Shown piece after piece: positions 1 through 13,734 of a stretch of DNA of 64,000 nt. The notes under the pieces are model-generated. The model was not told the DNA's origin and ran no database searches. It saw nothing but the letters and a program-made list of their open reading frames with translations. Within the stretch, counting starts at the first letter, position 1, and each line of letters begins with the position of its first letter. Both the position numbers and the translations under genes were made by a program. This DNA comes from Desulfovibrio desulfuricans DSM 642 (GTDB lineage: Bacteria; Desulfobacterota; Desulfovibrionia; Desulfovibrionales; Desulfovibrionaceae): the NCBI RefSeq assembly GCF_000420465.1, contig NZ_ATUZ01000013.1:248001-312000 (forward strand), read 5' to 3'.

Positions 1-1177
1 CTTTACCATCCAGCTTGGCCAGTGGAGCGAACCTGCCCAGCACGACTTTGTCGTGAAGGCCGATGGCCGCACCGAAAAGGGCGTGCTCCGCGCCAAGCTC
101 ATGCAGCTTTCTGACGATGCGGAAGAATTCAAGCTTTACATCTCGGGCATTGCTGGCCGTTGCGGTTTTATCGCCCCGGCTGAAGCCGCCGCGCAGATTG
201 ACTTCACCAAGCACATCACGGCCAACGATATTGGTCTGGTCGCCTATCTGCACGGCATTATTGATACCGACACCGTGTGCGAACTGGTGGACTTTCACAG
301 CGCATGGCTCTGGAACACCATTGAGTCGCTTATCAAGGCCAATGCGGACTGGGATCTGTTCTACATGCATTCCCACCCCATTGACTGGTTCTATCACGGC
401 TGGCTCAGCGAGCTGGACAGCACGGACGATGCGGTTCGTACCAAGGCCGAAAAGATGGAACGCTACATCTACGAAGTGGAAGACCGTCTGCTTGGACGTC
501 TCATGGACATCATGGGCGATGAAACCGTCATGTGCGTATGCTCCGACCACGGTGCAACACCCCTTGGCCCCATCCTCAACACGGCCCACGCCCTCAAGGA
601 AGCGGGTCTGTGCTCTTACGAACCCAAGAAGTCCGAGAACTACTGGGATATCTACGAGGAAACCGAAGGCTTCAACTACGTGCTTGATGTGAGCAAGTCG
701 CTTGCCGTGCCGCAGCGCTACATGTTCGTGTACGTGAACCTGAAGGGCCGTTACCCCGGCGGCATTGTTGAGCAGGAAGACTACGAAAACGTGCGCGATC
801 GCATCATCAACGCCCTGCTGGACTACAAGCATCCCGACACGGGCGACCGCCCCGTGCTGCTGGCAGTGCGCAAGGAAGACGCTCACGTGTTTGGCATGGG
901 CGGCGCGCAGGCTGGCGATGTGGTGTACGTGCTCAAACCCGAATACATGGCCGAACACGGTTACGGTCTTCCCACCGGCGAATCCGGCTGCGGCAGCCTC
1001 AAGAACCTGCTCATGTTCCGCGGCCCCAACATCCGCAAGGGCTATCGTTATACCCGCCCGCGCTGGCTGGCCGACATTGTGCCCACCTTCTGCTACATCA
1101 CGGGCAATCCTGTGCCCGCCGATGCCGAAGGCGCGCCCATTTACCAGATCATGGAAAACCCCAATCTGGTTGATTAA
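1..1177 (+). CDS. Alkaline-phosphatase-superfamily phosphodiesterase, 5' end cut off
   Basis: The reading frame is open from base 2, so the true start lies upstream of the window and about 392 residues are visible. Family signs are a metal-ligand type SDHG motif (near the codons at 541-555) followed by a GP and 'ADIVPTF' segment near the C-terminus, as in the type I phosphodiesterase/nucleotide pyrophosphatase branch, where the last helix region reads D-I-x-PT. The protein ends with IYQIMENPN, a short tail that recurs in the next gene. Metal-dependent hydrolysis of a phosphate or phosphonate ester is the family activity; the substrate cannot be read from the sequence. The gene is followed by a hairpin and then by a small gene in the same orientation, suggesting cotranscription. 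Confidence 0.75.
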   Translation, partial: FTIQLGQWSEPAQHDFVVKADGRTEKGVLRAKLMQLSDDAEEFKLYISGIAGRCGFIAPAEAAAQIDFTKHITANDIGLVAYLHGIIDTDTVCELVDFHSAWLWNTIESLIKANADWDLFYMHSHPIDWFYHGWLSELDSTDDAVRTKAEKMERYIYEVEDRLLGRLMDIMGDETVMCVCSDHGATPLGPILNTAHALKEAGLCSYEPKKSENYWDIYEETEGFNYVLDVSKSLAVPQRYMFVYVNLKGRYPGGIVEQEDYENVRDRIINALLDYKHPDTGDRPVLLAVRKEDAHVFGMGGAQAGDVVYVLKPEYMAEHGYGLPTGESGCGSLKNLLMFRGPNIRKGYRYTRPRWLADIVPTFCYITGNPVPADAEGAPIYQIMENPNLVD

Positions 1178-1268: not shown

Positions 1269-1817
1269 ATGGCTGAAAAGAAAGCGATTCTCCTGATGCT
1301 GCCTTCCGTTGCGCTCAGCGGCGCATCCGAAGCGCTGGACAAGCTGAAGAAAAAGGCCGTCCTGCTGGCCAATGCCGACAGCGCTGGTCTGGAAGCTCTG
1401 GGCCTGGAACTTGGCGGCAAAAAAGTTGAAGCTGCCGCCCTTAAAGGCGCGGAAGACGCGCTGCTGGTGGTGCAGGGTGACGAGGCCGCTCTGGCTGCTG
1501 CTCTGGAAGCCGCCGACCGCCGCACCCTGGTGGTGGTTGCCGCCGCTGACGGTGTGGCCTTCTATGGTCTGGCTGTGGACAGCAAGGCCGGTGCCGTTGC
1601 CCGCGCCGTTAACGCGCAGGACATAGCCGTTACCATTGCCACCATTGCGGATCTGCCCGTCAGCGCCCAGTGCACCGGCGGCATCATTTATCAGGCAATG
1701 AAAAATCCCAACCTCAAGCTTGATGAAATCAGAAAGCTCAAGGAAGCCCTGGTGCGCATGGAATCGGTTATCCAGCGCGATAACCGCGAGCCATGGGACA
1801 AGCACGACTGCGCCTAA
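1269..1817 (+). CDS. Small protein resembling the C-terminal tail of the upstream phosphatase
   Basis: The protein has 182 residues. The ATG at 1269 is preferred over the GTG at 1248 because AAGG lies 8 bases upstream. The first ~110 residues are rich in Ala, Leu, Val and Gly and predict an alternating beta/alpha fold; I recognise no catalytic motif. Residues ~120-150 line up with the last ~31 residues of the preceding phosphatase (DI..T....P..A..G..IYQ.M.NPN), followed by a charged C-terminal helix. I infer a non-catalytic partner or a derived paralogue of that C-terminal region. The function is unknown. Confidence 0.75.
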   Translation: MAEKKAILLMLPSVALSGASEALDKLKKKAVLLANADSAGLEALGLELGGKKVEAAALKGAEDALLVVQGDEAALAAALEAADRRTLVVVAAADGVAFYGLAVDSKAGAVARAVNAQDIAVTIATIADLPVSAQCTGGIIYQAMKNPNLKLDEIRKLKEALVRMESVIQRDNREPWDKHDCA

Positions 1818-1969: not shown

Positions 1970-2422
1970 TCTGTATGCAAGCAGTTTAATCCTGTTTAAC
2001 ACGGTTTGGCTGATGAAAAAGCCTGCGATAACTGCTGATTGAGGTTTTTTCTGTATTTATTAAATATGGTTATGATGTATATGGCAATAGTTAGCATTCT
2101 TATATTTTTATAACTGTTTGTTGCGGCATAACTATTTGTATTAAGTGCTGAAATGTTGTCTCTGCACTTGTTATTCTCTGATAAATTTGGAATTGTTAAA
2201 ATTAAGTAATCAATAGTGCTTTTGGCAGTATGCCTATTTTGTTTTGATAATAGTCAGCATTTGTCATTAAAACTGAATATGTAAATAATAAATGGAGAAG
2301 TATTAGTATTATTGATGGTGGCGTGCAAAACACGTTAGGCTGAGTATACTGCGAATGTTTGCCAAGTTTGAATGCAAGGTAGTGTGCGATTGTACATTTA
2401 AGTTTGACAATTGGGGGGATAC
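1970..2422. other. AT-rich intergenic stretch, no gene seen
   Basis: About 450 bases, markedly more AT-rich than the flanking genes. There is no open frame with a ribosome binding site. It probably holds the promoter of the PilZ gene, but no clear -35/-10 pair stands out. Confidence 0.4.
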
Positions 2423-3403
2423 ATGAAGTTTCTCAGAACAATTGTTGACTTTTTCTGGAGGGCATCGCTCCGGTTTCGATCCGTTCAGCCCGGTAAAATC
2501 TTTGTGGCCGCACAAAGGCACTATCTGTTGTTGCGGCTCTTTTTTGTAGACAGACAACGCCAGCTTGAAAACGTTGCCTGTGATGTTCTGTATATTTCTC
2601 CACAAAAAATATTGCTTAAATCAAACAAACGTTTTTTGCCTGATATTCTTAAAGGCGAGCGTTGTAGCCTGTATGTAAAAGTACCTCATGCAATTGCAGA
2701 AAAATATCTTGGAATTTCATATCCTGCTATCAGGCATGGTTTTATTTTTAAAACACGGATTATCGCAAATCATATAGATACTGAGTCAAAGCAATGCATT
2801 GTTGAGATTGCCATGCCACAACAATATGTGCAGCGTGATCTGCAGCGGCATGAGCGCGTTGGACTCACGCCGCTGATGCTCAAAAAAATTTCTCTGTGGA
2901 TTTGCAACAATCGGTTGCCAAAATCTGTGAATGATATGGATAAGGCGACAGTTAGCTATGTTGATGAAAGTATATGTTCTTCGATACGGGTGGTGAATAT
3001 GTCGTCAGGCGGATTAAGAGTGCAACTTGATAGCTTTAAGGGTTTTGAAAATCCACGAAGGGAATTGAACAAGCCTATCATACTGAATATTGTGTTGTAC
3101 AAGACGTTACGCAAAGAACTGTCACTATGGACAGTATGCTCTTGCGTCAAAGTCCATTTCAGCCCGCAATTAAAGATACTGACCCTGTTTTTAAAATTTG
3201 TGCGCGTATGGGATGACCCCAATGAAGGAGGTACTGGCTGGCGCGTTATTGACCGCGAGGGCATAGCGGCCATTGAGGCCTGGGTGGACAATGACTATTG
3301 CATGCTGCTTGATAAAAACCGCATGGTTTCTGATGAATTATGCCGCTGCTTTGGTCTTGATCCTGTCAATGCGCATAAAAAAAATCCCGCACGCCGTTCG
3401 TGA
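2423..3403 (+). CDS. PilZ-domain protein, probable c-di-GMP effector
   Basis: The protein has 326 residues. The ATG at 2423 has a GGGGGG ribosome binding site; an in-frame TTG at 2411 overlaps that site and was rejected. The PilZ signature is visible: RDLQR (residues 138-142, the RxxxR element) and NMSSGG (192-197, the [D/N]xSxxG element), which in this family wrap c-di-GMP. The ~130 residues before it resemble a YcgR-type N-terminal barrel. There is no transmembrane segment or signal peptide, so it should be cytoplasmic. The gene is more AT-rich than its neighbours and stands alone, with a minus-strand terminator overlapping its 3' end. A role in c-di-GMP control of motility or surface behaviour is inferred from the family only. 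Confidence 0.75.
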   Translation: MKFLRTIVDFFWRASLRFRSVQPGKIFVAAQRHYLLLRLFFVDRQRQLENVACDVLYISPQKILLKSNKRFLPDILKGERCSLYVKVPHAIAEKYLGISYPAIRHGFIFKTRIIANHIDTESKQCIVEIAMPQQYVQRDLQRHERVGLTPLMLKKISLWICNNRLPKSVNDMDKATVSYVDESICSSIRVVNMSSGGLRVQLDSFKGFENPRRELNKPIILNIVLYKTLRKELSLWTVCSCVKVHFSPQLKILTLFLKFVRVWDDPNEGGTGWRVIDREGIAAIEAWVDNDYCMLLDKNRMVSDELCRCFGLDPVNAHKKNPARRS

Positions 3404-3455: not shown

Positions 3456-4874
3456 CTAGCCTTGCAGTTTTTCACTCCCCCCGGACATTCTGCGCATTTT
3501 GCGTTGCAGGGTGCGCAGGTTCAGCCCCAGTTCTTCCGCGGCTTTGCCCCTGTGCCAGCGGCACTTTTCAAGCGCCTGCCGGATCATGCGTTCTTCAAGT
3601 TGCAGTACGGCCTGATCAAGGCTGATGCCCTGGGGCGTGTTGAGCAGCAGGTCGGCCCGCCCGGCATCCCCCAGCGAAAGAAGCGCCTCGTCGCCAAAGG
3701 CAAGGTACCGGTCAAGAAAGTTGTGCAGCTCACGCACGTTGCCGGGCCAGTCGTACTGCTCCACAGCCAGCCGCACATGGGGCGGCAGAATAAGGTTCAG
3801 GGCGCGCTTTTCAAGCCACGCCTCCACCAGCAGGGCAATGTCGCCGTGGCGTTCGCGCAGGGGCGGCAGGGTGATGGAAAGCACGTTGACGCGGTAATAA
3901 AAATCGGAGCGCATGGTTTTTTCGCGCACCATTTTTGAGAGATCCTGATTGGTTGCGGCAATGAGGCGGAAGGAGGATTCCTTGGGCGTATTGCCGCCCA
4001 CGGGGGTGTACATTTTGTTTTCAATGGCCCTGAGCAGCTTGACCTGAAGGTGCAGCGGCAGTTCGCCTATTTCGTCCAGAAACAGCGTACCGCCGTTGGC
4101 CGCGCCTATGTAGCCCTCTTTATTGGCATGCGCGCCGGAGAACGCCCCCTTCACATGCCCGAAAAATTCGCTCTCCAGCAGTTGCTCGGGGATTGCGCCG
4201 CAGTTTACCGGCACATAGCGGCCCTTGCGCCCGCTGTATTCATGAATACTCTTGGCGGCAAGGTCTTTGCCGCAGCCGGTTTCACCGTAAATGATGACGT
4301 TTGAATCTGTTTCTGCCGCCTTGAGAATCTGGCTGTATACGCGGCGCATGGGCTCGCTTTTGCCCACAATGTTGCCCAGGCCGTAAAGATTGATAACAGA
4401 GGTACGCAGCTCTCGATTTTCTTCGCGCAGGGCCATTTCCTGAAATTTCTGCTCACTCACGTCCATGATCAGGCCTTCAAGATATCGCAGAACGCCCGAA
4501 TCATCGTACACGCCTTCCCCTTGATCCCACAGCCACTTGACGCGCCCTGAGGGCAGCAAAAGCCGGTACATGACCTGATACGGCTCGTGGGCGACAATAC
4601 TGTCGCGGATGGCTTTGCGGCTGGGGCCGAGGTCATCGGGGTGGGTCATCAGTTCAATGGTGTTGTGGTGGTCAAGCACCATGTCTTCGGCTGGCACCCC
4701 CAGCAACTCGTAGCTGCCACGGCTTACAAACTCCAGTTCATACTGGAGATAATCACTTTCCGGCGCGTCGATATTGAGAACGCGGCAGCGATAGGCCATG
4801 CCGGGCAGGTGATTGAGCAAGCGGCGATAGCTTTTTTCCACGTTAATGGGGGGAACTGGGGGCGATGAAAGCAT
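3456..4874 (-). CDS. Sigma-54 activator with PAS sensor domain
   Basis: The protein has 472 residues from the ATG at 4874. The frame stays open to 4964, but a longer start would put the regulator's own inverted-repeat site inside the gene. The order is PAS-like domain (~15-150), AAA+ domain (~165-400) with Walker A GETGCGK (197-203), the sigma-54 contact loop as GAFSGA (243-248, Thr replaced by Ser), Walker B LFLDEI, and a Fis-type helix-turn-helix (~440-465). There is no response-regulator receiver domain, so the signal is probably sensed by the PAS domain itself. It is divergent from the OsmC/lpdA/gcvH operon, which has a -24/-12 promoter and an activator-type palindrome in the shared intergenic region. 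A second operon at 9186 carries the same sites. The ligand is unknown. Confidence 0.9.
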   Translation of the reverse strand: MLSSPPVPPINVEKSYRRLLNHLPGMAYRCRVLNIDAPESDYLQYELEFVSRGSYELLGVPAEDMVLDHHNTIELMTHPDDLGPSRKAIRDSIVAHEPYQVMYRLLLPSGRVKWLWDQGEGVYDDSGVLRYLEGLIMDVSEQKFQEMALREENRELRTSVINLYGLGNIVGKSEPMRRVYSQILKAAETDSNVIIYGETGCGKDLAAKSIHEYSGRKGRYVPVNCGAIPEQLLESEFFGHVKGAFSGAHANKEGYIGAANGGTLFLDEIGELPLHLQVKLLRAIENKMYTPVGGNTPKESSFRLIAATNQDLSKMVREKTMRSDFYYRVNVLSITLPPLRERHGDIALLVEAWLEKRALNLILPPHVRLAVEQYDWPGNVRELHNFLDRYLAFGDEALLSLGDAGRADLLLNTPQGISLDQAVLQLEERMIRQALEKCRWHRGKAAEELGLNLRTLQRKMRRMSGGSEKLQG

Positions 4875-4907: not shown

Positions 4908-4923
4908 GCGACACAAATGTCGC
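4908..4923. promoter_or_regulatory. Inverted-repeat activator site GCGAC-N6-GTCGC (site 1)
   Basis: GCGACACAAATGTCGC is a 16-bp inverted repeat 34 bases upstream of the activator start and about 77 bases upstream of the -24/-12 promoter at 5000. It overlaps the palindrome TGTCGCGACA (4904-4913). Near copies occur at 8764 and 8911. Binding by the adjacent activator is inferred. Confidence 0.65.
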
Positions 4924-4999
4924 TTCCGGGCCGGGATACTAGCGGCATGTGCCATAAAACACAAGCGCGGATGGAGTTATGAAGCCAAGGGCAATCTGA

Positions 5000-5015
5000 T
5001 GGCACTATTAGTGCA
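5000..5015 (+). promoter_or_regulatory. Sigma-54 (-24/-12) promoter of the OsmC/lpdA/gcvH operon
   Basis: TGGCACTATTAGTGCA matches the consensus TGGCAC-N5-TTGC except for one base. The GG and GC are separated by exactly 10 bases as the family requires. Expected transcription start is near 5026, 54 bases before the first gene. Confidence 0.75.
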
Positions 5016-5079
5016 ATAGACAGGCCAAATCGCGCGAGAGCAGGGTGCCCTTGCGTTTTTTCAGCCTGGAGGCTTTGAA

Positions 5080-5517
5080 ATGTCACATGAACTCAGTGTT
5101 TCTCTCTGCCGCCGCGGCGGCAAGGTGGATCTGGATATGGAGAGCGGCGCGTTTGGCGTGCTCACCATAGACGGCGAAAAGATTCCGCCCGAAGAACGTT
5201 CCGGCACGGCCAAAAAGCTCCTGGCCGCCTCAGCCCTGTACTGCTATTGCGCCGCTTTGGACAAGGCCCTGGATACGCGCAATGCCAAGTACGACAAAAT
5301 CGAGGCCAGGGCCACGCTGCACACCGGCACCGATGATCTGGGCCGGGGCAGGGTAACGGGCATTGATATCGATGTTACCGTGCATCTGGATGAAGAGTAC
5401 GAATTTATTTTTGACCGGGTGGAAAAGATCATGCGTCAAGGCTGCCTGGTCACGGGCTCGCTGGAGGCCGCCTTCCCCGTGAAGTACAACCTCAGGCTCG
5501 CCGACGACGAAGATTAG
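5080..5517 (+). CDS. OsmC-family protein
   Basis: The protein has 145 residues. The N-terminal beta strands are followed by a long helix with two cysteines (SALYCYC, ~75-81) and a later RQGCLVTGSL segment (~119-128), at the position where OsmC/Ohr proteins carry the second redox cysteine. The family reduces organic hydroperoxides or acts as a thiol-reactive fold. In Ohr/OsmC proteins, electrons can come from dihydrolipoamide, which fits the lipoamide dehydrogenase and lipoyl carrier encoded next door. It is the first gene of the sigma-54 operon; lpdA starts 8 bases after its stop. The exact substrate is not deducible. Confidence 0.75.
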   Translation: MSHELSVSLCRRGGKVDLDMESGAFGVLTIDGEKIPPEERSGTAKKLLAASALYCYCAALDKALDTRNAKYDKIEARATLHTGTDDLGRGRVTGIDIDVTVHLDEEYEFIFDRVEKIMRQGCLVTGSLEAAFPVKYNLRLADDED

Positions 5518-5525
5518 GAGCCCGC

Positions 5526-6953
5526 ATGTCCGACCAGAAAAAAAGCATGATCGTTGTGGGCGGCGGCCCTGGCGGTTACACGGCGGCTTTTGCGGCCGCC
5601 AAGGCCGGAATGGCCGTAACCCTCGTGGAGTGCGCCGAACTTGGCGGCACCTGCCTCAACAATGGTTGCATACCCACCAAGACTATCAAGTCGTCTGCGG
5701 AAGCGCTGGAGATTGCCCAGCAGGCGGTGCAGTTCGGCGTCAAGATTGAAGGCGGCGTCAGCATTGACCCGCAGGCCGTCTACGAGCGCAAGGAGCGCGT
5801 TTGCGCCACCCTGCGTTCGGGCCTTGAAAAGACCTGCGCCGCCCTGGGCGTAACCCTGGTGCGCGGCAAGGGGCGTCTGCTTTGCGGCGGCGCGGTGGAG
5901 GTGACCGGCAACGGCGCAAGCTCCAGTCTTTCAGCGGATTACGTCATATTGGCAACGGGTTCGCATCCTGTGAACCTGCCGGGCCTGACAGCCGACCACA
6001 AGCGCATTCTCACCAGCGACGATGCTCTCAAGCTCACGCATGTGCCTGCCTCCATCATCATTGTGGGTGGCGGCGTCATTGGCTGCGAGCTGGCCTGCAT
6101 CTATCGGGCTTTTGGCTCCGCTGTCACAGTGATTGAAGGGCAGGACAGGATATTGCCCCTGCCTTCGGTGGATGCCGACATCAGCACCTTGCTCCAGCGC
6201 GAGATGAAAAAGCGCCGCATTGCCTGCGAACTCGGGCAAACGCTCACCCATGTGCGCGTGGATGAAAACGGCGTCAGCGGCGTGCTTGCGCCATCGCCCT
6301 TTGTGAGCGGCGCGCCCGCGAGGCCCGAACGCCCCATCAGCGCCGAGATGGTGCTTGTTTCTGTGGGCCGCGCCTCCATGACCGCCGGGCTTGGCCTCAA
6401 GGAAGCCGGTGTTGCCACGGACGAACGCGGCTGGATACGCGCTGATGAATACATGCGCACATCCCTGCCCGGCGTGTATGCCATTGGCGATGCCCTTGGC
6501 CCTGCGCGCGTCATGCTGGCCCATGTGGCGGCCGCCGAGGCTCTTTGCGCCGTTAACGACTGCCTGACCGGCGGCAAGGGCGCTCCCATGGATTACCGTT
6601 TTGTACCTTCGGCCATCTTCACCTCGCCGGAAATCGGCTGCGTGGGTATGAGCGAGCAGCAGGCGCGCGATGCGGGCTATGAGGTTAAAACCTCAGTTGT
6701 GCAGGTGCGCGAACTTGGCAAGGCTCAGGCAATGGGCGCGCTGCCCGGCTTCTGCAAGCTGGTGGCGGATGCCAGCGACGGCACCCTGCTGGGCGCGCAC
6801 ATGGCTGGCGCGCACGCCACCGACCTTATTGCCGAAACAACTCTGGCTTTGCGCATGGGCGCTTCCATCAACGACATAGCCACCACCATTCACGCCCACC
6901 CCACGCTGGCCGAAGCCATTGGCGACGCTGCCCTGCGTATGGAAGAGGAGTAG
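5526..6953 (+). CDS. lpdA: Dihydrolipoyl dehydrogenase
   Basis: The protein has 475 residues, full length for the family. AGGAG precedes the ATG. The FAD-binding GGGPGG motif is near the N-terminus, the redox-active disulfide is GGTCLNNGCIPTK, a second NAD-binding GGGVIGCE motif lies near residue 180, and the C-terminal HAHPT element supplies the catalytic His of the dimer interface. The enzyme reoxidises dihydrolipoamide on a carrier protein with NAD. The carrier is most likely the GcvH encoded 4 bases downstream, because no 2-oxoacid dehydrogenase or glycine decarboxylase subunits are in the window. Confidence 0.95.
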   Translation: MSDQKKSMIVVGGGPGGYTAAFAAAKAGMAVTLVECAELGGTCLNNGCIPTKTIKSSAEALEIAQQAVQFGVKIEGGVSIDPQAVYERKERVCATLRSGLEKTCAALGVTLVRGKGRLLCGGAVEVTGNGASSSLSADYVILATGSHPVNLPGLTADHKRILTSDDALKLTHVPASIIIVGGGVIGCELACIYRAFGSAVTVIEGQDRILPLPSVDADISTLLQREMKKRRIACELGQTLTHVRVDENGVSGVLAPSPFVSGAPARPERPISAEMVLVSVGRASMTAGLGLKEAGVATDERGWIRADEYMRTSLPGVYAIGDALGPARVMLAHVAAAEALCAVNDCLTGGKGAPMDYRFVPSAIFTSPEIGCVGMSEQQARDAGYEVKTSVVQVRELGKAQAMGALPGFCKLVADASDGTLLGAHMAGAHATDLIAETTLALRMGASINDIATTIHAHPTLAEAIGDAALRMEEE

Positions 6954-6957
6954 TATC

Positions 6958-7359
6958 ATGAAAGATCTTGACCAATTGGCTTTGCCCGAAAACCTGCGCT
7001 ATACCGACGAACACGTGTGGCTGTGCGTGGAAGGCGAAACCGCCACCGTAGGCATCAGCGACTTTGCCCAGGATCAGCTTGGCGAGATCGCTTTTGTTGA
7101 TCTGCCCGCCGTGGGTACAACATACAAAAACGGTCAGGAATTCGGCACCGTTGAATCGCTGAAGTCCGTCAACGCCCTGTTCATGCCTGTTGCCGGGTCA
7201 GTGCTTGAAGTGAATGAAACGCTGGAAAGCACGCCCACCCTCGTCAATGCCAAGCCCTACAACGAAGGCTGGATGCTGCGCATCCGTATGGACGACCCTG
7301 CCGAGGCTGCAACTCTGGCCGACAGCGCCGCCTACCTCAACCTTTTGCGCAAGGGCTAA
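6958..7359 (+). CDS. gcvH: Glycine cleavage H-like lipoyl carrier protein
   Basis: The protein has 133 residues. The ribosome binding site GAAGAGGAG overlaps the lpdA stop. The H-protein fold is clear: the N-terminal YTDEHVW segment, GISDFAQDQLGEI, and the lipoylated lysine in ESLKSV. Canonical H protein shuttles the aminomethyl group between GcvP, GcvT and Lpd. Here gcvT and gcvP are absent, while an OsmC-like gene and an importer are coregulated. It may therefore be a free-standing lipoyl carrier rather than part of a standard glycine operon. The rest of the glycine system could be elsewhere in the genome. Confidence 0.9.
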   Translation: MKDLDQLALPENLRYTDEHVWLCVEGETATVGISDFAQDQLGEIAFVDLPAVGTTYKNGQEFGTVESLKSVNALFMPVAGSVLEVNETLESTPTLVNAKPYNEGWMLRIRMDDPAEAATLADSAAYLNLLRKG

Positions 7360-7370
7360 GAGGCAAAGCG

Positions 7371-8435
7371 GTGAAAGGCCCTTCCGGCAACGGCCCGAAA
7401 AGCGACAGGGGCGCGTGTAGCACCTCTGCGCGGGATGCGGCATATGTACGCAAGGGGCTTTTTCTCGCTGCGCTGACCGGGGTAATTTTCAGTCTTGATG
7501 GCCCTATTCTGAAGCAGGGGCTGGTGAAAGAGCCGTTCAGCATACCTGAATTCTGGCTGTTGGCCCCCCTGTTTGCCGCAGGCTGTCACGACATTAGCGC
7601 GGCCTGTCTTTCTCTTGTTCTCAATGTGGCCCAGGGCAAAGGGCGGGAGGTGTTCCGCACCTTTTGCAGCAAGCCCGGCAAGTTTTGTATAATGGGCGCT
7701 TTTATGGGCGCTCCCCTCGGCATGGGGGGGTACCTGATGGGCATTTCGCTGGCAGGGCCAGCCTATGCCTTGCCCATTTCCACCCTGTATCCGGCAATTG
7801 CGGCGGTTCTGGCGCGCTTTTTTCTGAAAGAGCGCATTTCCGCAAGGGCCATGTGCGGCCTTGCGCTTTGCGTGGCGGGCGCGTTTACCGTGGGCTGGTC
7901 TGCACCGCAGGGCGGGGTGGGCGGTCAGGCCTTTTATCTGGGGCTGGGGTTCGCCTTTCTGGCCGCCTTTGGCTGGGCATCGGAAGGCGTGTGCGTAACG
8001 GCGGGCATGGATTTTATCGAGCCCGTCGTGGCTCTGAACGTCTATCAGATCGTTTCCAGCCTGCTGTATGTGCTGGTGATCGTGCCTGCGGCCTTTGTGC
8101 TGCTGGAGCGCACCCGGCCCGGTCTGAACGCGGCTGACCTGCTGCTGCAGGCCCTTGCCAGCCCCGGTTTGCCCTTTTGCATAGCCGCTGGCCTGGTGGG
8201 CTGCGTTTCGTACCGCTGCTGGTACACGGCCATGAACATGACCGGCGTATGCCGGGCCATGGCCCTGAACGTGACCTATGCCCTCTGGGGCATACTATTC
8301 AGCGCCCTTTTTACCAACGTTACCGTTACCCGTAATCTTGTGGCGGGCGCGGTGGTGATAGTGGCGGGCATTGTGCTGGTTGTCATGCAGGGCAAGAGCG
8401 GAACCGCCTTGCGCCTTGCTCGGGAGCGGCGGTGA
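7371..8435 (+). CDS. DMT/EamA-family membrane transporter
   Basis: The protein has 354 residues and starts with GTG at 7371, with AAGAGG 7 bases before it. About ten hydrophobic segments in two repeats follow an N-terminal cytoplasmic stretch of ~30 residues, as in EamA-type drug/metabolite transporters. The segment GPAYALPISTLYPAIAAVLA is typical of the first repeat's end. Members export or import small metabolites. It follows gcvH by 11 bases, so it probably belongs to the same operon and may move a product or precursor of that pathway. Direction and substrate are not readable. Confidence 0.85.
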   Translation: MKGPSGNGPKSDRGACSTSARDAAYVRKGLFLAALTGVIFSLDGPILKQGLVKEPFSIPEFWLLAPLFAAGCHDISAACLSLVLNVAQGKGREVFRTFCSKPGKFCIMGAFMGAPLGMGGYLMGISLAGPAYALPISTLYPAIAAVLARFFLKERISARAMCGLALCVAGAFTVGWSAPQGGVGGQAFYLGLGFAFLAAFGWASEGVCVTAGMDFIEPVVALNVYQIVSSLLYVLVIVPAAFVLLERTRPGLNAADLLLQALASPGLPFCIAAGLVGCVSYRCWYTAMNMTGVCRAMALNVTYALWGILFSALFTNVTVTRNLVAGAVVIVAGIVLVVMQGKSGTALRLARERR

Positions 8436-8689
8436 TGCGTATCCGGCTGCCTTTGCGGTTGGCTGTGGGCAGATTGCTGCTGGACGGCATCCCCCGCATG
8501 GCCAGTGAGGTGTGCGTGGCCCTGGAACCAGAATACGCGGGCGAAAGGCAGATCAATGCGGCGAACATTGAAGCCCAGCTGCAAGCCCTCAAGGGTGTGG
8601 GTATTGTGATCGTTTGCAATGAATCCGATCAGGGCGTTGCGTACGGAATCACCCCTGATGGCAGGCAGCGTGTTTTGCGCAATATCTAG
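8435..8689 (+). CDS. Small winged-helix-like protein
   Basis: The protein has 84 residues. The ATG overlaps the stop of the transporter gene (TGATG), suggesting translational coupling. The second half (LQALKGVGIVIV...YGITPDGRQRV) has the spacing of a recognition helix followed by a beta wing as in PadR/MarR-like winged helices, but the N-terminal helices are short. It may be a small DNA-binding protein or an adaptor. I see no other recognisable motif. Confidence 0.55.
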   Translation: MRIRLPLRLAVGRLLLDGIPRMASEVCVALEPEYAGERQINAANIEAQLQALKGVGIVIVCNESDQGVAYGITPDGRQRVLRNI

Positions 8690-8763
8690 CGCAGGGCAGG
8701 CCGCGCAAAACGGCAAGCCCGATCAAAACCGGAAAGATCAAACCATCCCCTGCGGAGGAAAGT

Positions 8764-8779
8764 GCGACGTAATTGTCGC
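8764..8779. promoter_or_regulatory. Inverted-repeat activator site (site 2)
   Basis: GCGACGTAATTGTCGC keeps the GCGAC-N6-GTCGC arms exactly and shares 13 of 16 bases with site 1. It lies 254 bases upstream of the -24/-12 promoter at 9033. Confidence 0.6.
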
Positions 8780-8910
8780 CTCCCTTGTGCGGAGAGATGG
8801 GGGGGACGAGGGCATCCCGGCAGGGGTTGTTCTTTTATTCCCTAGCGTGGCCTGGAAAAATCGGGTACAGCGGCCCGCGCAAGCCCCAAATATGCGCGTC
8901 AATAGCGGGT

Positions 8911-8926
8911 GCGTCACATGTGTCGC
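8911..8926. promoter_or_regulatory. Inverted-repeat activator site (site 3) with extra half-site
   Basis: GCGTCACATGTGTCGC shares 13 of 16 bases with site 1. A second TGTCGCAA half-site follows at 8941-8948, 20 bases (two helical turns) after the one at 8921-8928. The site is about 107 bases upstream of the -24/-12 promoter. Confidence 0.6.
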
Positions 8927-9032
8927 AAAATGCGCGTTCGTGTCGCAACCAGTGCCGCAACAAGAGCATGTTGAGTAAAAAATATCCTGTAATAGCTGAT
9001 GATAAGCGGTTTTTTGCAGGAGTTGTGAAAAA

Positions 9033-9048
9033 TGGTATATATTATGCA
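9033..9048 (+). promoter_or_regulatory. Sigma-54 (-24/-12) promoter of the importer operon
   Basis: TGGTATATATTATGCA has the invariant GG and GC at the required 10-base spacing. The expected start is near 9059, leaving a ~125-base leader before the GTG at 9186. Sites 2 and 3 upstream support activator control. The rest of the 8690-9185 gap holds no gene. Confidence 0.65.
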
Positions 9049-9185: not shown

Positions 9186-9950
9186 GTGCAGCAAACCGAT
9201 GACTGTGCCTGTTCCGACGCTAAAATAGCAGTCAGGGATCTAACGAAAATGTATGGGGATCTTACCGTTCTGGATAAGGTCAACTTTACCATCAAGCGCG
9301 GAGAGCTGGTTTGCATAGTCGGGCCTACGGGATGCGGCAAGACAACCTTTCTCAACTGCATGTCCAAACTTACGGAAACCACCTCCGGCAACATCTACAT
9401 TGATGGTGAAGTGGCAAATCCGCGCAAGCATAACCTGGCCTTTGTGTTTCAGGAACCAACGGCCTTGCCGTGGCTTACCGTGGAAGAAAACGTGGCCTAT
9501 GGCATGCGCATAAAAAAGGTTCCGCCCAAGCAGCTCAGGGAACGCCTTGATATGATCCTGGAGATGGTGGGTCTGGAAGATACGGCCAAGCTGTATCCCA
9601 ACCAGGTTTCGGCCAGCATGATGCAGCGTATCGCCGTGGCGCGCGCCTTTGCCGTGAACCCTGATCTGCTGCTCATGGATGAGCCCTACGGCCAGCTTGA
9701 CGTGAAGCTGCGCTTCTACCTTGAAGACGAGCTTGTGAAGCTGTGGCAGACCCTCAAGAGCACCGTGCTTTTTGTTACGCACAATATAGAAGAAGCCGTG
9801 TATGTGGCTGACCGCATCCTGGTGCTGAGCCCCAAGCCCACCAAGGTGAGGGCGGAAGTGGTTGTTGACCTGCCGCGCCCGAGGGATTTCAGGGATCCGC
9901 GTTTTGTCGAACTTCGCCGCCAGGTCACAGACCTCATCCGCTGGTGGTAG
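9186..9950 (+). CDS. NitT/TauT-type ABC ATPase with degenerate signature motif
   Basis: The protein has 254 residues, with GTG start and AAGGAG ribosome binding site. Walker A GPTGCGKT (46-53), Q-loop Q89, Walker B LLLMDEP (E166) and the switch His H199 are all intact, but the ABC signature normally LSGGM/Q reads VSASM (141-145). It pairs with the second ATPase at 11675, which has an intact signature but an altered Walker A and a missing switch His. In a head-to-tail heterodimer this subunit would contribute the working Walker side of the one canonical site. It is first in the five-gene importer operon. Confidence 0.9.
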   Translation: MQQTDDCACSDAKIAVRDLTKMYGDLTVLDKVNFTIKRGELVCIVGPTGCGKTTFLNCMSKLTETTSGNIYIDGEVANPRKHNLAFVFQEPTALPWLTVEENVAYGMRIKKVPPKQLRERLDMILEMVGLEDTAKLYPNQVSASMMQRIAVARAFAVNPDLLLMDEPYGQLDVKLRFYLEDELVKLWQTLKSTVLFVTHNIEEAVYVADRILVLSPKPTKVRAEVVVDLPRPRDFRDPRFVELRRQVTDLIRWW

Positions 9951-9966: not shown

Positions 9967-10779
9967 ATGCAATGCAATGAAAAAGTAACCTACCGCAAGC
10001 CCATGCGGCTTCGCATCCTGCCGGTTCTGAGCGTTTGTATTTTCCTTGGCGTGTGGCAGATGTGCGTTGGCCCGGCTGACAGCAACGACTGGCGCATTCC
10101 CGGCACGCTGCTCAGCTCGCCCTACGACATTCTGAGCCTCATGTTCGACAAGCTCACCAATCCCGCGCCTGACGGCGCAGTGCTGCTGGACCACGCCTGG
10201 ACAAGTATGCAGGAAGCCTTTTTGGGCTACGTGCTGGCCCTGATTGTGGGCCTGCCCCTGGGCCTTGCAATGGGCTGGTTCACCACGGTGCGCGGCCTTG
10301 TGCGCCCCATATTTGAAATCATCCGGCCCATTCCGCCGGTTGCCTGGATCCCGCTGACCATTTTCTGGTTTGGCATCGGTCTGCCCGGCAAGGTATTTAT
10401 CATCTGGCTTTCGGGCATCGTGCCGTGCGTCATCAATACATATACCGGCGTGCGCATGACCAACCCCGTACATATTCAGATGGCCAGAACCTATGGCGCT
10501 TCCGACTGGCAGATATTTACCTCCATCTGCGTTCCTTCCGCGCTGCCCATGGTGTTTGGCGCATTGCAGATCGCCCTGGCCTACTGCTGGGTGACACTGG
10601 TTGCCGCCGAACTGCTGGCCGCAGACAAGGGCCTTGGCTACCTCATCACCATCGGCCGCATGCTTGGCCGTACCGACCTTGTGATGGTGGGCATGGTGAG
10701 CGTGGGTATAGCCGGCGCAATCATCGGTTTCATCATTGACAAGATCGAATCCCGGCTGCTGGCCGGCATCAGGAGATAG
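9967..10779 (+). CDS. NitT/TauT-type ABC permease, subunit 1
   Basis: The protein has 270 residues. The ATG at 9967 has AAGGGA 6 bases upstream. There are six hydrophobic segments. The BPD_transp_1 coupling region (EAA-like loop) reads ...TYGASDWQIFTSICVPSALPMVFGALQ. The segment PIPPVAWIPLTIFWFGIG is characteristic of SsuC/TauC-type permeases. The next gene encodes a second, different permease, so the channel is probably a heterodimer. It is in the inner membrane and in an operon with two ATPases and one binding protein. Confidence 0.9.
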   Translation: MQCNEKVTYRKPMRLRILPVLSVCIFLGVWQMCVGPADSNDWRIPGTLLSSPYDILSLMFDKLTNPAPDGAVLLDHAWTSMQEAFLGYVLALIVGLPLGLAMGWFTTVRGLVRPIFEIIRPIPPVAWIPLTIFWFGIGLPGKVFIIWLSGIVPCVINTYTGVRMTNPVHIQMARTYGASDWQIFTSICVPSALPMVFGALQIALAYCWVTLVAAELLAADKGLGYLITIGRMLGRTDLVMVGMVSVGIAGAIIGFIIDKIESRLLAGIRR

Positions 10780-10783
10780 CGCC

Positions 10784-11656
10784 ATGCAGTCTTCCTCGGC
10801 GTCCAACGGGCAGACCCAGAGCGTCTGCAATGAAACCATCAAGAACACGAAAAAATACGAGTTTTCGCTGATACGTGCCCTCAAGAGCGAATACTTCTTG
10901 TACATCGTTTCACTGGTGAGCTTTTTCGGCCTGTGGCAGTGGGCTGCCACGTCCAACGTGTTCGGGTACAGCAGCGCCCTGGCCACGCCCTTTCAGGTGG
11001 TTGAAAGCCTGCACGACCTGAGCGTCAACAAGCTTTCCGGCCTTGGCCTGCTCGAACATCTGTGGATCAGCACGCGCCGCGTTATCATCGGCTTTTTGAT
11101 TGCCGCTGGCTTTGGCATCCCGCTGGGTCTGTTCATGGCTTTCAACGAAACGTTCCGCGCCGTTGTGAAACCCATTTTCGATATGTTCAAGCCAATGCCG
11201 CCCCTGGCCTGGATTTCTGTGGCCATCCTGTGGTTCGGCATTGGCGAAGCGCCCAAGATTTTCATCATCGTCATTGGCTCCTTTGTGCCGGTGGTGCTCA
11301 ACTCTTACAGCTGCCTGCAACTCATCGAACCCGAATTTTTCGATGTGGTGCGCATCATCGGCGGCAAACGCTGGGACGAAATCCGCCTTGTGTGCATTCC
11401 CGGCGCGCTGCCCGCCATTACGGCAGGTTTGCAGATCGCCATGTCCAGCGCCTGGACGTGCGTTGTGGCTGCGGAGCTTGTGAATTCCCGTTCCGGCCTT
11501 GGCTACATCATTGTGCAGGGTATGAAACTGTCCGACCCCGGCATGATTATCGGCGGCATGCTCATTATTACCGCCGTTTCGCTGGTGTTCACCCTGGGGA
11601 TGGATCTGCTGACCCGCAAGCTGTGCCCCTGGCAGCGTGAAATCGAGAATCTTTAG
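10784..11656 (+). CDS. NitT/TauT-type ABC permease, subunit 2
   Basis: The protein has 290 residues. The ATG at 10784 has AGGAG 8 bases upstream, overlapping the end of subunit 1. An N-terminal cytoplasmic segment of ~40 residues precedes six hydrophobic segments. PMPPLAWISVAILWFGIG and an EAA-like loop (IIGGKRWDEIRLVCIPGALPAI) match the family. It is clearly homologous to subunit 1 but diverged, as expected for the partner of a heterodimeric channel. Confidence 0.9.
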   Translation: MQSSSASNGQTQSVCNETIKNTKKYEFSLIRALKSEYFLYIVSLVSFFGLWQWAATSNVFGYSSALATPFQVVESLHDLSVNKLSGLGLLEHLWISTRRVIIGFLIAAGFGIPLGLFMAFNETFRAVVKPIFDMFKPMPPLAWISVAILWFGIGEAPKIFIIVIGSFVPVVLNSYSCLQLIEPEFFDVVRIIGGKRWDEIRLVCIPGALPAITAGLQIAMSSAWTCVVAAELVNSRSGLGYIIVQGMKLSDPGMIIGGMLIITAVSLVFTLGMDLLTRKLCPWQREIENL

Positions 11657-11674: not shown

Positions 11675-12442
11675 GTGAAAGACACGCAGCCAAAAATTGT
11701 CTGTGACAATATATGCAAAACCTTCATCCAGAAGGGAACCCAGGTGGTTCCGGTTCTGGAGAACATCTCCCTTGAGGTGCGCGATCAGGAGTTTCTGGTC
11801 ATCCTCGGGCCGGGGCAGTGCGGCAAGACAACCTTGCTGCGCATTCTCGCCGGGCTTGAAGCGCCTTCGTCCGGCGCGGCTTATCTGGACGGCAAGCAGA
11901 TTGTGGCCCCCGGCCCGCAGATCGGTCTGGTGTTTCAGAGCTACAAGCTCTTTCCGTGGAAGACCGTGCGCCAGAACGTGGAAATCGGCCTTGAGGTGCG
12001 TGGGCTTGAGCCTGCGAAGATCCGTGAGATTTCCAATCACTATCTTGGCATGGTGGGTCTGCAAGGCTTTGAGGATTACTATCCTCACCAGCTTTCGGGC
12101 GGCATGAAGCAGCGTGTGGGCATTGCCCGCGCCTATGCTCTCAACCCCGAGGTGCTGCTGCTTGATGAACCCTTTGGCCAGCTTGACGCCCAGACCCGCT
12201 TTTTCATGGAGCAGGAAACCGAGCGTATCTGGCACATGGACAAGCGCACCATGATTTTTGTGACCAACAACATCGATGAAGCCCTGTTCCTCGCCGACCG
12301 CATCGTCACCATGGAAGACAAGCTGCCGGGGCATGTACACACCTCGTATGACGTGCCGCTGCCGCGCCCGCGCGACACCATGGATCCCGCGTTCCTCGAA
12401 CTGCGGGCCAGAATTACGGAAGAACAGAAGCTTACGCTCTAG
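11675..12442 (+). CDS. NitT/TauT-type ABC ATPase lacking the switch histidine
   Basis: The protein has 255 residues. GTG start with AAGGAG. The signature LSGGM (140-144) and Walker B LLLDEP (E165) are intact. Walker A reads GPGQCGKT (45-52), with Gln where the family usually has Gly, and the switch histidine is Asn (VTNN, N198). These changes would fall in the same composite ATP site as the broken signature of the first ATPase. The gene is followed by a hairpin and the binding-protein gene. Confidence 0.9.
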   Translation: MKDTQPKIVCDNICKTFIQKGTQVVPVLENISLEVRDQEFLVILGPGQCGKTTLLRILAGLEAPSSGAAYLDGKQIVAPGPQIGLVFQSYKLFPWKTVRQNVEIGLEVRGLEPAKIREISNHYLGMVGLQGFEDYYPHQLSGGMKQRVGIARAYALNPEVLLLDEPFGQLDAQTRFFMEQETERIWHMDKRTMIFVTNNIDEALFLADRIVTMEDKLPGHVHTSYDVPLPRPRDTMDPAFLELRARITEEQKLTL

Positions 12443-12645: not shown

Positions 12646-13734
12646 ATGAGAAAACTGCTTCTGGTCGCGCTTCTGCTGTGCATGGGCGCTGTCATCTGCG
12701 GCGGTCCCGTCGCCACTCTGGCAGCCGACAAGCCCGTTGAAATTTCCACCTGCTGGATGGACGAATCCCCGGGCTTCAACATCTGGTACGCCAAGAAAAT
12801 GGGTTGGGACAAGGAAGAAGGCCTGGACATCAAGATGTTGCTGTTCAACAGCGGCCCTGCCCAGATGGAAGCCCTGCCCGCCAAGGAATGGGTGCTCGGT
12901 TCCACGGGCGTTGGCGGTCAGCTGATCGGCGGCATCCGTTACAATATTTACTCCGTGGCCCCCATCATCAGCGAAGGCGAAGTGCACGTGCTTTACCTGC
13001 GCCCCGACAGCCCCGCCGCCAAGGTCAAGGGCTACAACCCCAAGTATCCCAACGTGTACGGCAGCCCTGAAACCGTCAAGGGCATGAAGATCCTGTACAC
13101 CTCCCAGACCACCGTTCACTACATGATCGGCAAGTGGCTGAGCATCCTTGGCCTTACCGAAGCCGACGTGACCCTGGTGAACATGGAACAGCCCTCTGCC
13201 GTGCCTGCTTTTGAAAAGGGCATTGGCGACGCAGTGTGCCTGTGGGCGCCCTTTACCTTTGTGGCTGATTCCCGCAAGTGGCAGCGCGCAGGCTCCATGA
13301 CCGACATGGACTGCATCACCGTGTCTTCGCTCGTGGGCGACAAAAAATGGTGCGATGAAAATCCCGAACTGGTTGCCAAGTTCCTGCGCGTGTACCTGCG
13401 CGGTTCCAACATGCTGCGCGAAGAAGGCCCCAGCCCCCGCATCATCAAGGAATACCGTCAGTACATGAACGAATTCGCCGGCATCCGCATGACTGACGAA
13501 GAAGCCAAGCTCGACATCCAGATCCACCCCCGCTGGTCTTACGAAGAAACCATGGCTCTGCTCGACAGGTCCAAGGGCGAATCGCAGGCCGACAAGTGGC
13601 AGAATTCTGTGGCCGACTTCTTTGGCAGCATCAAGCGCTTCTCGCCTGCTGAAATCAAGAAGTTCAAGGACGCCCAGATCAATACCGACAAGTTCCTGAA
13701 GCAGGTTCAGCTGCCCATTGCCAGCTGGAAGTAG
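12646..13734 (+). CDS. Periplasmic substrate-binding protein, NMT1/SsuA-like
   Basis: The protein has 362 residues. GGAG precedes the ATG. A signal peptide occupies about residues 1-27 (hydrophobic core, AxA-type cut at TLAA-DKP); there is no lipobox. The mature part has the two-lobed fold of NitT/TauT-type binding proteins: an early GFNIWYAKKMGW helix, a MEALPAKEWVLGSTGVGG loop, and a FEKGIGDAVCLWAPF element. Related proteins bind sulfonates, nitrate, pyrimidines or aromatic acids. The ligand-pocket residues do not allow a choice here. It is last in the sigma-54-controlled importer operon. Confidence 0.9.
   Translation: MRKLLLVALLLCMGAVICGGPVATLAADKPVEISTCWMDESPGFNIWYAKKMGWDKEEGLDIKMLLFNSGPAQMEALPAKEWVLGSTGVGGQLIGGIRYNIYSVAPIISEGEVHVLYLRPDSPAAKVKGYNPKYPNVYGSPETVKGMKILYTSQTTVHYMIGKWLSILGLTEADVTLVNMEQPSAVPAFEKGIGDAVCLWAPFTFVADSRKWQRAGSMTDMDCITVSSLVGDKKWCDENPELVAKFLRVYLRGSNMLREEGPSPRIIKEYRQYMNEFAGIRMTDEEAKLDIQIHPRWSYEETMALLDRSKGESQADKWQNSVADFFGSIKRFSPAEIKKFKDAQINTDKFLKQVQLPIASWK

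Follow-up and report, generated by a model that had tools for sequence, protein, structure and literature searches.

A probable one-component sigma-54 regulon joining transport, hydrolase and OsmC–lipoyl genes around a divergent activator in Desulfovibrio desulfuricans DSM 642

The activator gene at 3456-4874 is very probably the centre of a one-component sigma-54 regulon, a reading that we base on sequence comparison. Positions are those of the window, the whole 64,000-nucleotide stretch analysed (contig NZ_ATUZ01000013.1, positions 248,001 to 312,000); features beyond its left edge are given on the contig itself (C13 of genome G000). In the proposed mechanism the activator, as an oligomer, would bind RCGACA-N4-TGTCGY palindromes and, by DNA looping from these operators, remodel the sigma-54 RNA polymerase poised on -24/-12 promoters. 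Four units would be controlled in this way: a porin-like gene, a hydrolase-p189 unit, an osmC-lpd-gcvH-EamA-p85 operon and an ABC importer. The motif and the promoters, their conservation, the near-exclusivity of the motif to this locus and its co-occurrence with the activator are direct observations. We infer that the activator is itself the protein that binds the palindromes and that it switches on the target units.

Results

Operators, promoters and the activator gene

A sequence-only reading of this DNA had proposed three GCGAC-N6-GTCGC sites and two -24/-12 promoters around two operons. A coordinate check placed all five quoted sequences where they had been reported, with GCGACGTAATTGTCGC and GCGTCACATGTGTCGC each matching GCGACACAAATGTCGC at 13 of 16 positions (at least 13 had been claimed) and with the claimed GG-N10-GC spacing exact in both TGGCACTATTAGTGCA and TGGTATATATTATGCA. 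The three sites therefore stand, but a further exact copy, GCGACAATACTGTCGC, had been overlooked. The central features are as follows.

3456-4874, minus strand: activator (bEBP) with PAS_3, Sigma54_activat, AAA lid and Fis-type HTH_8 domains (Pfam)
4591-4606: exact operator GCGACAATACTGTCGC, within the activator gene
4908-4923: operator GCGACACAAATGTCGC, between activator and osmC; 34 bp 5' of the activator start codon and 92 bp 5' of the -24 box start
5000-5015, plus strand: -24/-12 promoter TGGCACTATTAGTGCA of the osmC operon, a conserved island in L170-L174
5080-5517, plus strand: OsmC-family protein with cysteines C55 and C122 (PF02566; alignment)
5526-6953, plus strand: Lpd, dihydrolipoyl dehydrogenase (TIGR01350, above cut-off)
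6958-7359, plus strand: GcvH-type lipoyl carrier with an ESLKSV lysine motif (PF01597, TIGR00527)
7371-8435, plus strand: EamA-family exporter (PF00892)
8432-8689, plus strand: 85-aa protein (p85) of unknown family, conserved with EamA in relatives

The domains and orientation of the activator agree with the earlier description of a PAS/AAA+ protein with a GAFSGA loop, divergent from the first operon. Both the AAA+ sigma-54 interaction domain (PF00158, E = 4e-63) and the Fis-type C-terminal HTH (PF02954) are present. The loop is conserved as G(A/S)FSGA across seven aligned orthologs, and GAFSGA is counted among the variants compatible with activation by Kazakov et al. (2015, PMC4641369). The genome contains rpoN once (a single PF04552 match). 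Activator orthologs were found in 66 of 288 family genomes, the genus-mate G040 being among those without one; a profile search of genome contigs based on the activator alignment found no orthologs, all the activators that it yielded being at most 48% identical. A second activator copy with 53% identity is found in G083 (L196, G083:C1:360000-379900), with no operator or target genes nearby, and is a paralog with other targets. Between p189 (see below) and the activator, the window also contains a 330-aa gene of unknown family (2411-3403) that is absent from this place in the relatives compared.

Genome-wide distribution of the motif

The exact motif occurs four times in the genome of 3,388,669 bases, compared with 12 copies of the reversed control pattern. 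The copies lie at 4591, 4908 and 8764 and within the leuD coding sequence, so that three of the four fall inside 4.2 kb, with a chance probability of about 2e-5 for random placement. Random genome-wide frequency, named beforehand as the outcome that would tell against the regulon, is thus not the pattern found. Relaxed forms of the motif are uninformative on their own, since at up to two mismatches the 64-kb window holds 41 copies against 44.6 expected from shuffles, which is no excess. At up to one mismatch the whole genome holds 38 copies against 49 of the reversed control; the motif is not enriched, and position alone is therefore informative at that stringency. Six of the 38 lie within a 9.9-kb stretch at the locus, where 0.11 would be expected. 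Of other -24/-12 promoters with the motif nearby, a check suggested in the sequence-only reading, those of the hydrolase and porin-like genes lie left of 4908-9048; elsewhere the one-mismatch copies lie within long open frames, except for a single intergenic copy that has no -24/-12 box. The signal resides in the strict motif together with its position and conservation.

Comparison of relatives, the 66 activator-bearing family genomes, refined the consensus to RCGACA-N4-TGTCGY. Across the 130 distinct sites near promoters the arms are nearly invariant and the four central bases free, a table that partly mirrors the search because sites were gathered at up to one mismatch. In a 59-genome sample, all 24 exact copies in the seven activator-bearing genomes adjoin the activator gene, and the other 52 genomes contain scattered background copies only. 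Within the same genus, genomes with the activator hold a mean of 3.08 copies and those without it 1.13 (Mann-Whitney p = 1.8e-7; p-values here and below serve as guides, because related genomes are not independent). The reversed control pattern showed no difference between these two groups.

Operators lie mostly 80-185 bp 5' of conserved sigma-54 boxes (osmC operon, BCCT transporter and EamA exporter). Among 30 BCCT upstream regions, 28 have the motif, 26 a -24/-12 box and 25 both, while for lpd and gcvH, which are internal operon genes, the motif is absent and no locus has both upstream. Helical phasing of operator distances is marginal when all targets are pooled (p ~0.04).

A motif by itself names no protein, and the palindromes could instead be bound by a different regulator, such as a repressor whose gene lies elsewhere, with the boxes being coincidental or served by another activator. 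A few members of the genus without a detected activator ortholog (G077, G118, G119 and G129) do contain four to five exact copies. We nevertheless consider this explanation very improbable, given that copy number follows the activator within one genus, that every exact copy in the seven activator genomes of the sample adjoins it, and that the distances from operator to -24 box are constrained. In G077 two exact copies are 113 bp apart (G077:C53), and the activator was possibly missed, or is divergent, in these four genomes.

The osmC operon

Upstream of osmC, the promoter TGGCACTATTAGTGCA scores well. Amid diverged intergenic DNA in close relatives, the palindrome and TGGCAC...TGCA persist as conserved islands. 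Among osmC upstream regions from 40 loci, the motif is found in 26, a -24/-12 box in 27 and both in 24. Motif or promoter is absent from the scanned region of about one-third of the osmC-like genes in relatives, mostly cases in which another gene leads the operon or the OsmC is a distant copy. Upstream of the -24 box the operators lie at distances of ~90, 101, 111, 120, 132, 154, 173 or 183 bp, which places most of them on the same face of the helix (period ~10.5; p ~0.003 on clustered values). In several relatives EamA has an operator and promoter of its own.

The importer operon

The second target claimed in the sequence-only reading was an importer operon preceded by the shared operator and a -24/-12 promoter; here a conserved architecture that tracks the activator bears the claim out.

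8764-8779: operator GCGACGTAATTGTCGC, 269 bp 5' of the importer -24 box; retained in L170-L173, with the core exact in L172 and L173
8911-8926: operator GCGTCACATGTGTCGC, 122 bp 5' of the importer -24 box; retained at 111-123 bp in L170-L173
9033-9048, plus strand: -24/-12 promoter TGGTATATATTATGCA of the importer operon, TGGTATATAAAATGCA in L172 and L173
9186-13734, plus strand: ABC importer operon (Pfam, NCBIfam)
9186-9950 and 11675-12442, plus strand: importer ATPases
9967-10779 and 10784-11656, plus strand: importer permeases
12646-13734, plus strand: NMT1/SsuA-type binding protein

The promoter TGGTATATATTATGCA is weak on consensus, because boxes of similar score recur every 1-2 kb. It is retained as TGGTATATAAAATGCA in L172 and L173 despite divergence of the surrounding intergenic DNA, and the operator pair lies ~111-123 and 255-269 bp from the box, in these two loci as well. 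No BCCT gene was found at the locus in this genome. Together with the operator at the ABC importer, this suggests that the importer may have replaced the BCCT transporter under the same control.

The hydrolase, p189 and porin-like genes

The proposal of a closed regulon comprising activator, osmC operon and importer held for those units, but a hydrolase operon and a porin-like gene are also included.

C13:245061-246632, leftward: porin-like gene, 524 aa, divergent from the hydrolase gene
C13:247019-247034 and 247105-247120, outside the window: hydrolase operators
C13:247217-247232, outside the window: hydrolase promoter box TGGCATGCAAATTGAA
C13:247291-249177, plus strand: type I phosphodiesterase-like (PDE) hydrolase gene, 628 aa (PF01663); its 3' part is window 1-1177
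1269-1817, plus strand: p189, 3' of the hydrolase gene in most relatives examined (alignment)

The start of the hydrolase gene lies 710 bases beyond the left edge of the window. Its operators, ACGACACATTTGTCGT and GCGGCAGAGTTGTCGT, lie 112 and 198 bp from TGGCATGCAAATTGAA, and spacings of ~112 and ~200 bp recur across relatives. The hydrolase and the divergent porin-like gene have the same operator pair 5' of conserved promoters, the porin gene box TGGCACACAGGATGCA being present or substituted by a similar box in four relatives. The porin-like call rests on sequence character, with no Pfam match. In most relatives the gene divergent from the hydrolase encodes a BCCT transporter, and in several the porin then follows. 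A hydrolase with at least 60% identity was found in 62 genomes, 60 of which also have the activator; six genomes have the activator only and two the hydrolase only (Fisher p ~3e-52).

The -12 GC is absent from the hydrolase promoter in all aligned relatives, which have TTGA, TTGG or TTGT for TTGC. Among hydrolase loci that match the loose pattern TGGYMY-N5-NTG (n = 24), TTG is followed by A, G or T, and the single C after TTG among hydrolase loci belongs to a different box, in L188. With the same loose pattern, C follows TTG in 27 of 28 matches in osmC regions. PMC4641369 reports nine operons that have activator sites and no recognised sigma-54 promoter.

Profile searches against the PDB weakly placed the hydrolase with phosphonoacetate hydrolase and NPP phosphodiesterases, and by sequence the protein is of the alkaline-phosphatase superfamily type. 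The C-terminal part of p189 has a segment related to the hydrolase C-terminus (iYQ.m.NPNL and the stretch before it), which raises the possibility that p189 is a free-standing cap, or a decoy, of the hydrolase fold. Structure prediction from single sequences gave models of p189 (pLDDT 49.5) and of the 85-aa protein (pLDDT 57.7) that were too poor for searching.

An operator inside the activator gene

At the 4591 site, codon identity at unchanged residues is 0.84, the third highest rank among 466 windows, compared with 0.51 gene-wide. In several relatives the GACA/TGTC arms persist through S to K and I to V residue changes. This conservation at synonymous positions supports a putative function at the DNA level. 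According to PMC4641369, enhancers within coding regions are not predictable computationally; the synonymous-site signal touches on that open point.

Both the operator close to the activator start codon (34 bp) and the intragenic one may tune the level of the activator. Carried further, sites 4908 and 4591 might serve mainly for activator autorepression, with the osmC operon and importer activated from elsewhere, as their placement near and within the activator gene would allow; in 39 of 49 loci, moreover, the motif is found in the 450 bp that precede the activator. The same sites, however, are also found, at distances typical of enhancers, in front of BCCT, PDE, EamA and importer genes that are remote from the activator start, and we give autorepression as the main role scant credence. 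Under the activation model, we hold it conceivable but rather doubtful that two devices, the conserved intragenic enhancer and a conserved class of sigma-54 promoters without the -12 C at the hydrolase (TGGCAY-N5-TTGA/G/T), would allow a single activator to grade its outputs in a new pathway of uptake and hydrolysis that is coupled to a lipoyl-OsmC relay.

Discussion

Relation to known systems

The class of mechanism proposed here is well known. In the one-component bEBP regulons of D. vulgaris Hildenborough described by Kazakov et al., an activator with a Fis-type HTH adjoins, and is often divergent from, its sigma-54 promoters, palindromic sites lie mostly within ~100 bp, and a regulon comprises one to four operons; the regulon described here resembles these in such respects. 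None of the activators listed there has the targets described here, a comparison made by targets rather than operator logos. DVU2827, a one-component GAFSGA member, controls pyruvate-formate-lyase-type genes according to the same text. The half sites and spacing here are CGACA-N4-TGTCG. Literature text searches that paired OsmC with GcvH/Lpd, or combined it with BCCT and Desulfovibrio, found nothing, and no description of the regulon was found in text searches, which covered neither subscription papers, supplements nor regulon databases. The present comparison defines an operator and likely targets for a sigma-54 activator of 66 of 288 family genomes, missing from the published D. vulgaris regulome, and an uptake, hydrolase and redox pathway is therefore testable as one unit.

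The redox genes and a possible pathway

OsmC is a remote member of its family (Pfam 29.8 bits, NCBIfam below cut-off). C55 is found in six of six aligned sequences and C122 in five of six, L037 having lost C122. According to PMC5962072, lipoylated proteins and lipoamide dehydrogenase reduce Ohr, a member of the OsmC superfamily, which makes an NADH-Lpd-lipoyl-GcvH-OsmC relay the most parsimonious interpretation. We propose tentatively, at somewhat less than an even chance, that OsmC, Lpd and lipoyl-GcvH form such an NADH-lipoyl-thiol relay by analogy. Both the Ohr of Xylella fastidiosa (PMC5962072, citing Cussiol et al. 2010) and the protein described here are two-cysteine members of the superfamily; Ohr receives its electrons from a lipoyl protein and Lpd, and here the three genes belong to a single operon. 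Unlike Ohr, the OsmC protein here is a remote relative within a transport and hydrolase regulon, and a peroxidase role is putative.

GcvH and Lpd are also components of glycine cleavage, and both score above their family cut-offs, so the three proteins might instead serve glycine cleavage or general one-carbon metabolism without a dedicated relay. However, gcvP lies elsewhere, adjoining another gcvH on contig C16, and the trio is therefore probably not the main system for glycine cleavage. Neither gcvP nor gcvT is among the genes shared at the locus, where the set of gcvH, gcvP and gcvT is thus incomplete. With the reduction of Ohr by lipoylated proteins as a precedent for a relay, the glycine-cleavage reading seems unlikely.

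Returning to the relay, our guess is that the units form one pathway. The porin and an inner-membrane importer (BCCT in most relatives, the NMT1/SsuA-type ABC system here) would take up a small compound, the cytosolic hydrolase would cleave it, and the EamA protein would export a product, with Lpd, lipoyl-GcvH and OsmC acting as the putative relay.

Further left of the window (L058:3853-9537, that is G000:C13:237852-243536) lies a gene for a glycyl-radical enzyme whose sequence resembles choline TMA-lyase CutC; next to it are genes for its activase, for an aldehyde dehydrogenase and for a protein like those of microcompartment shells. Glycyl-radical enzymes also adjoin the locus in G003 and, in G001, a related activator.
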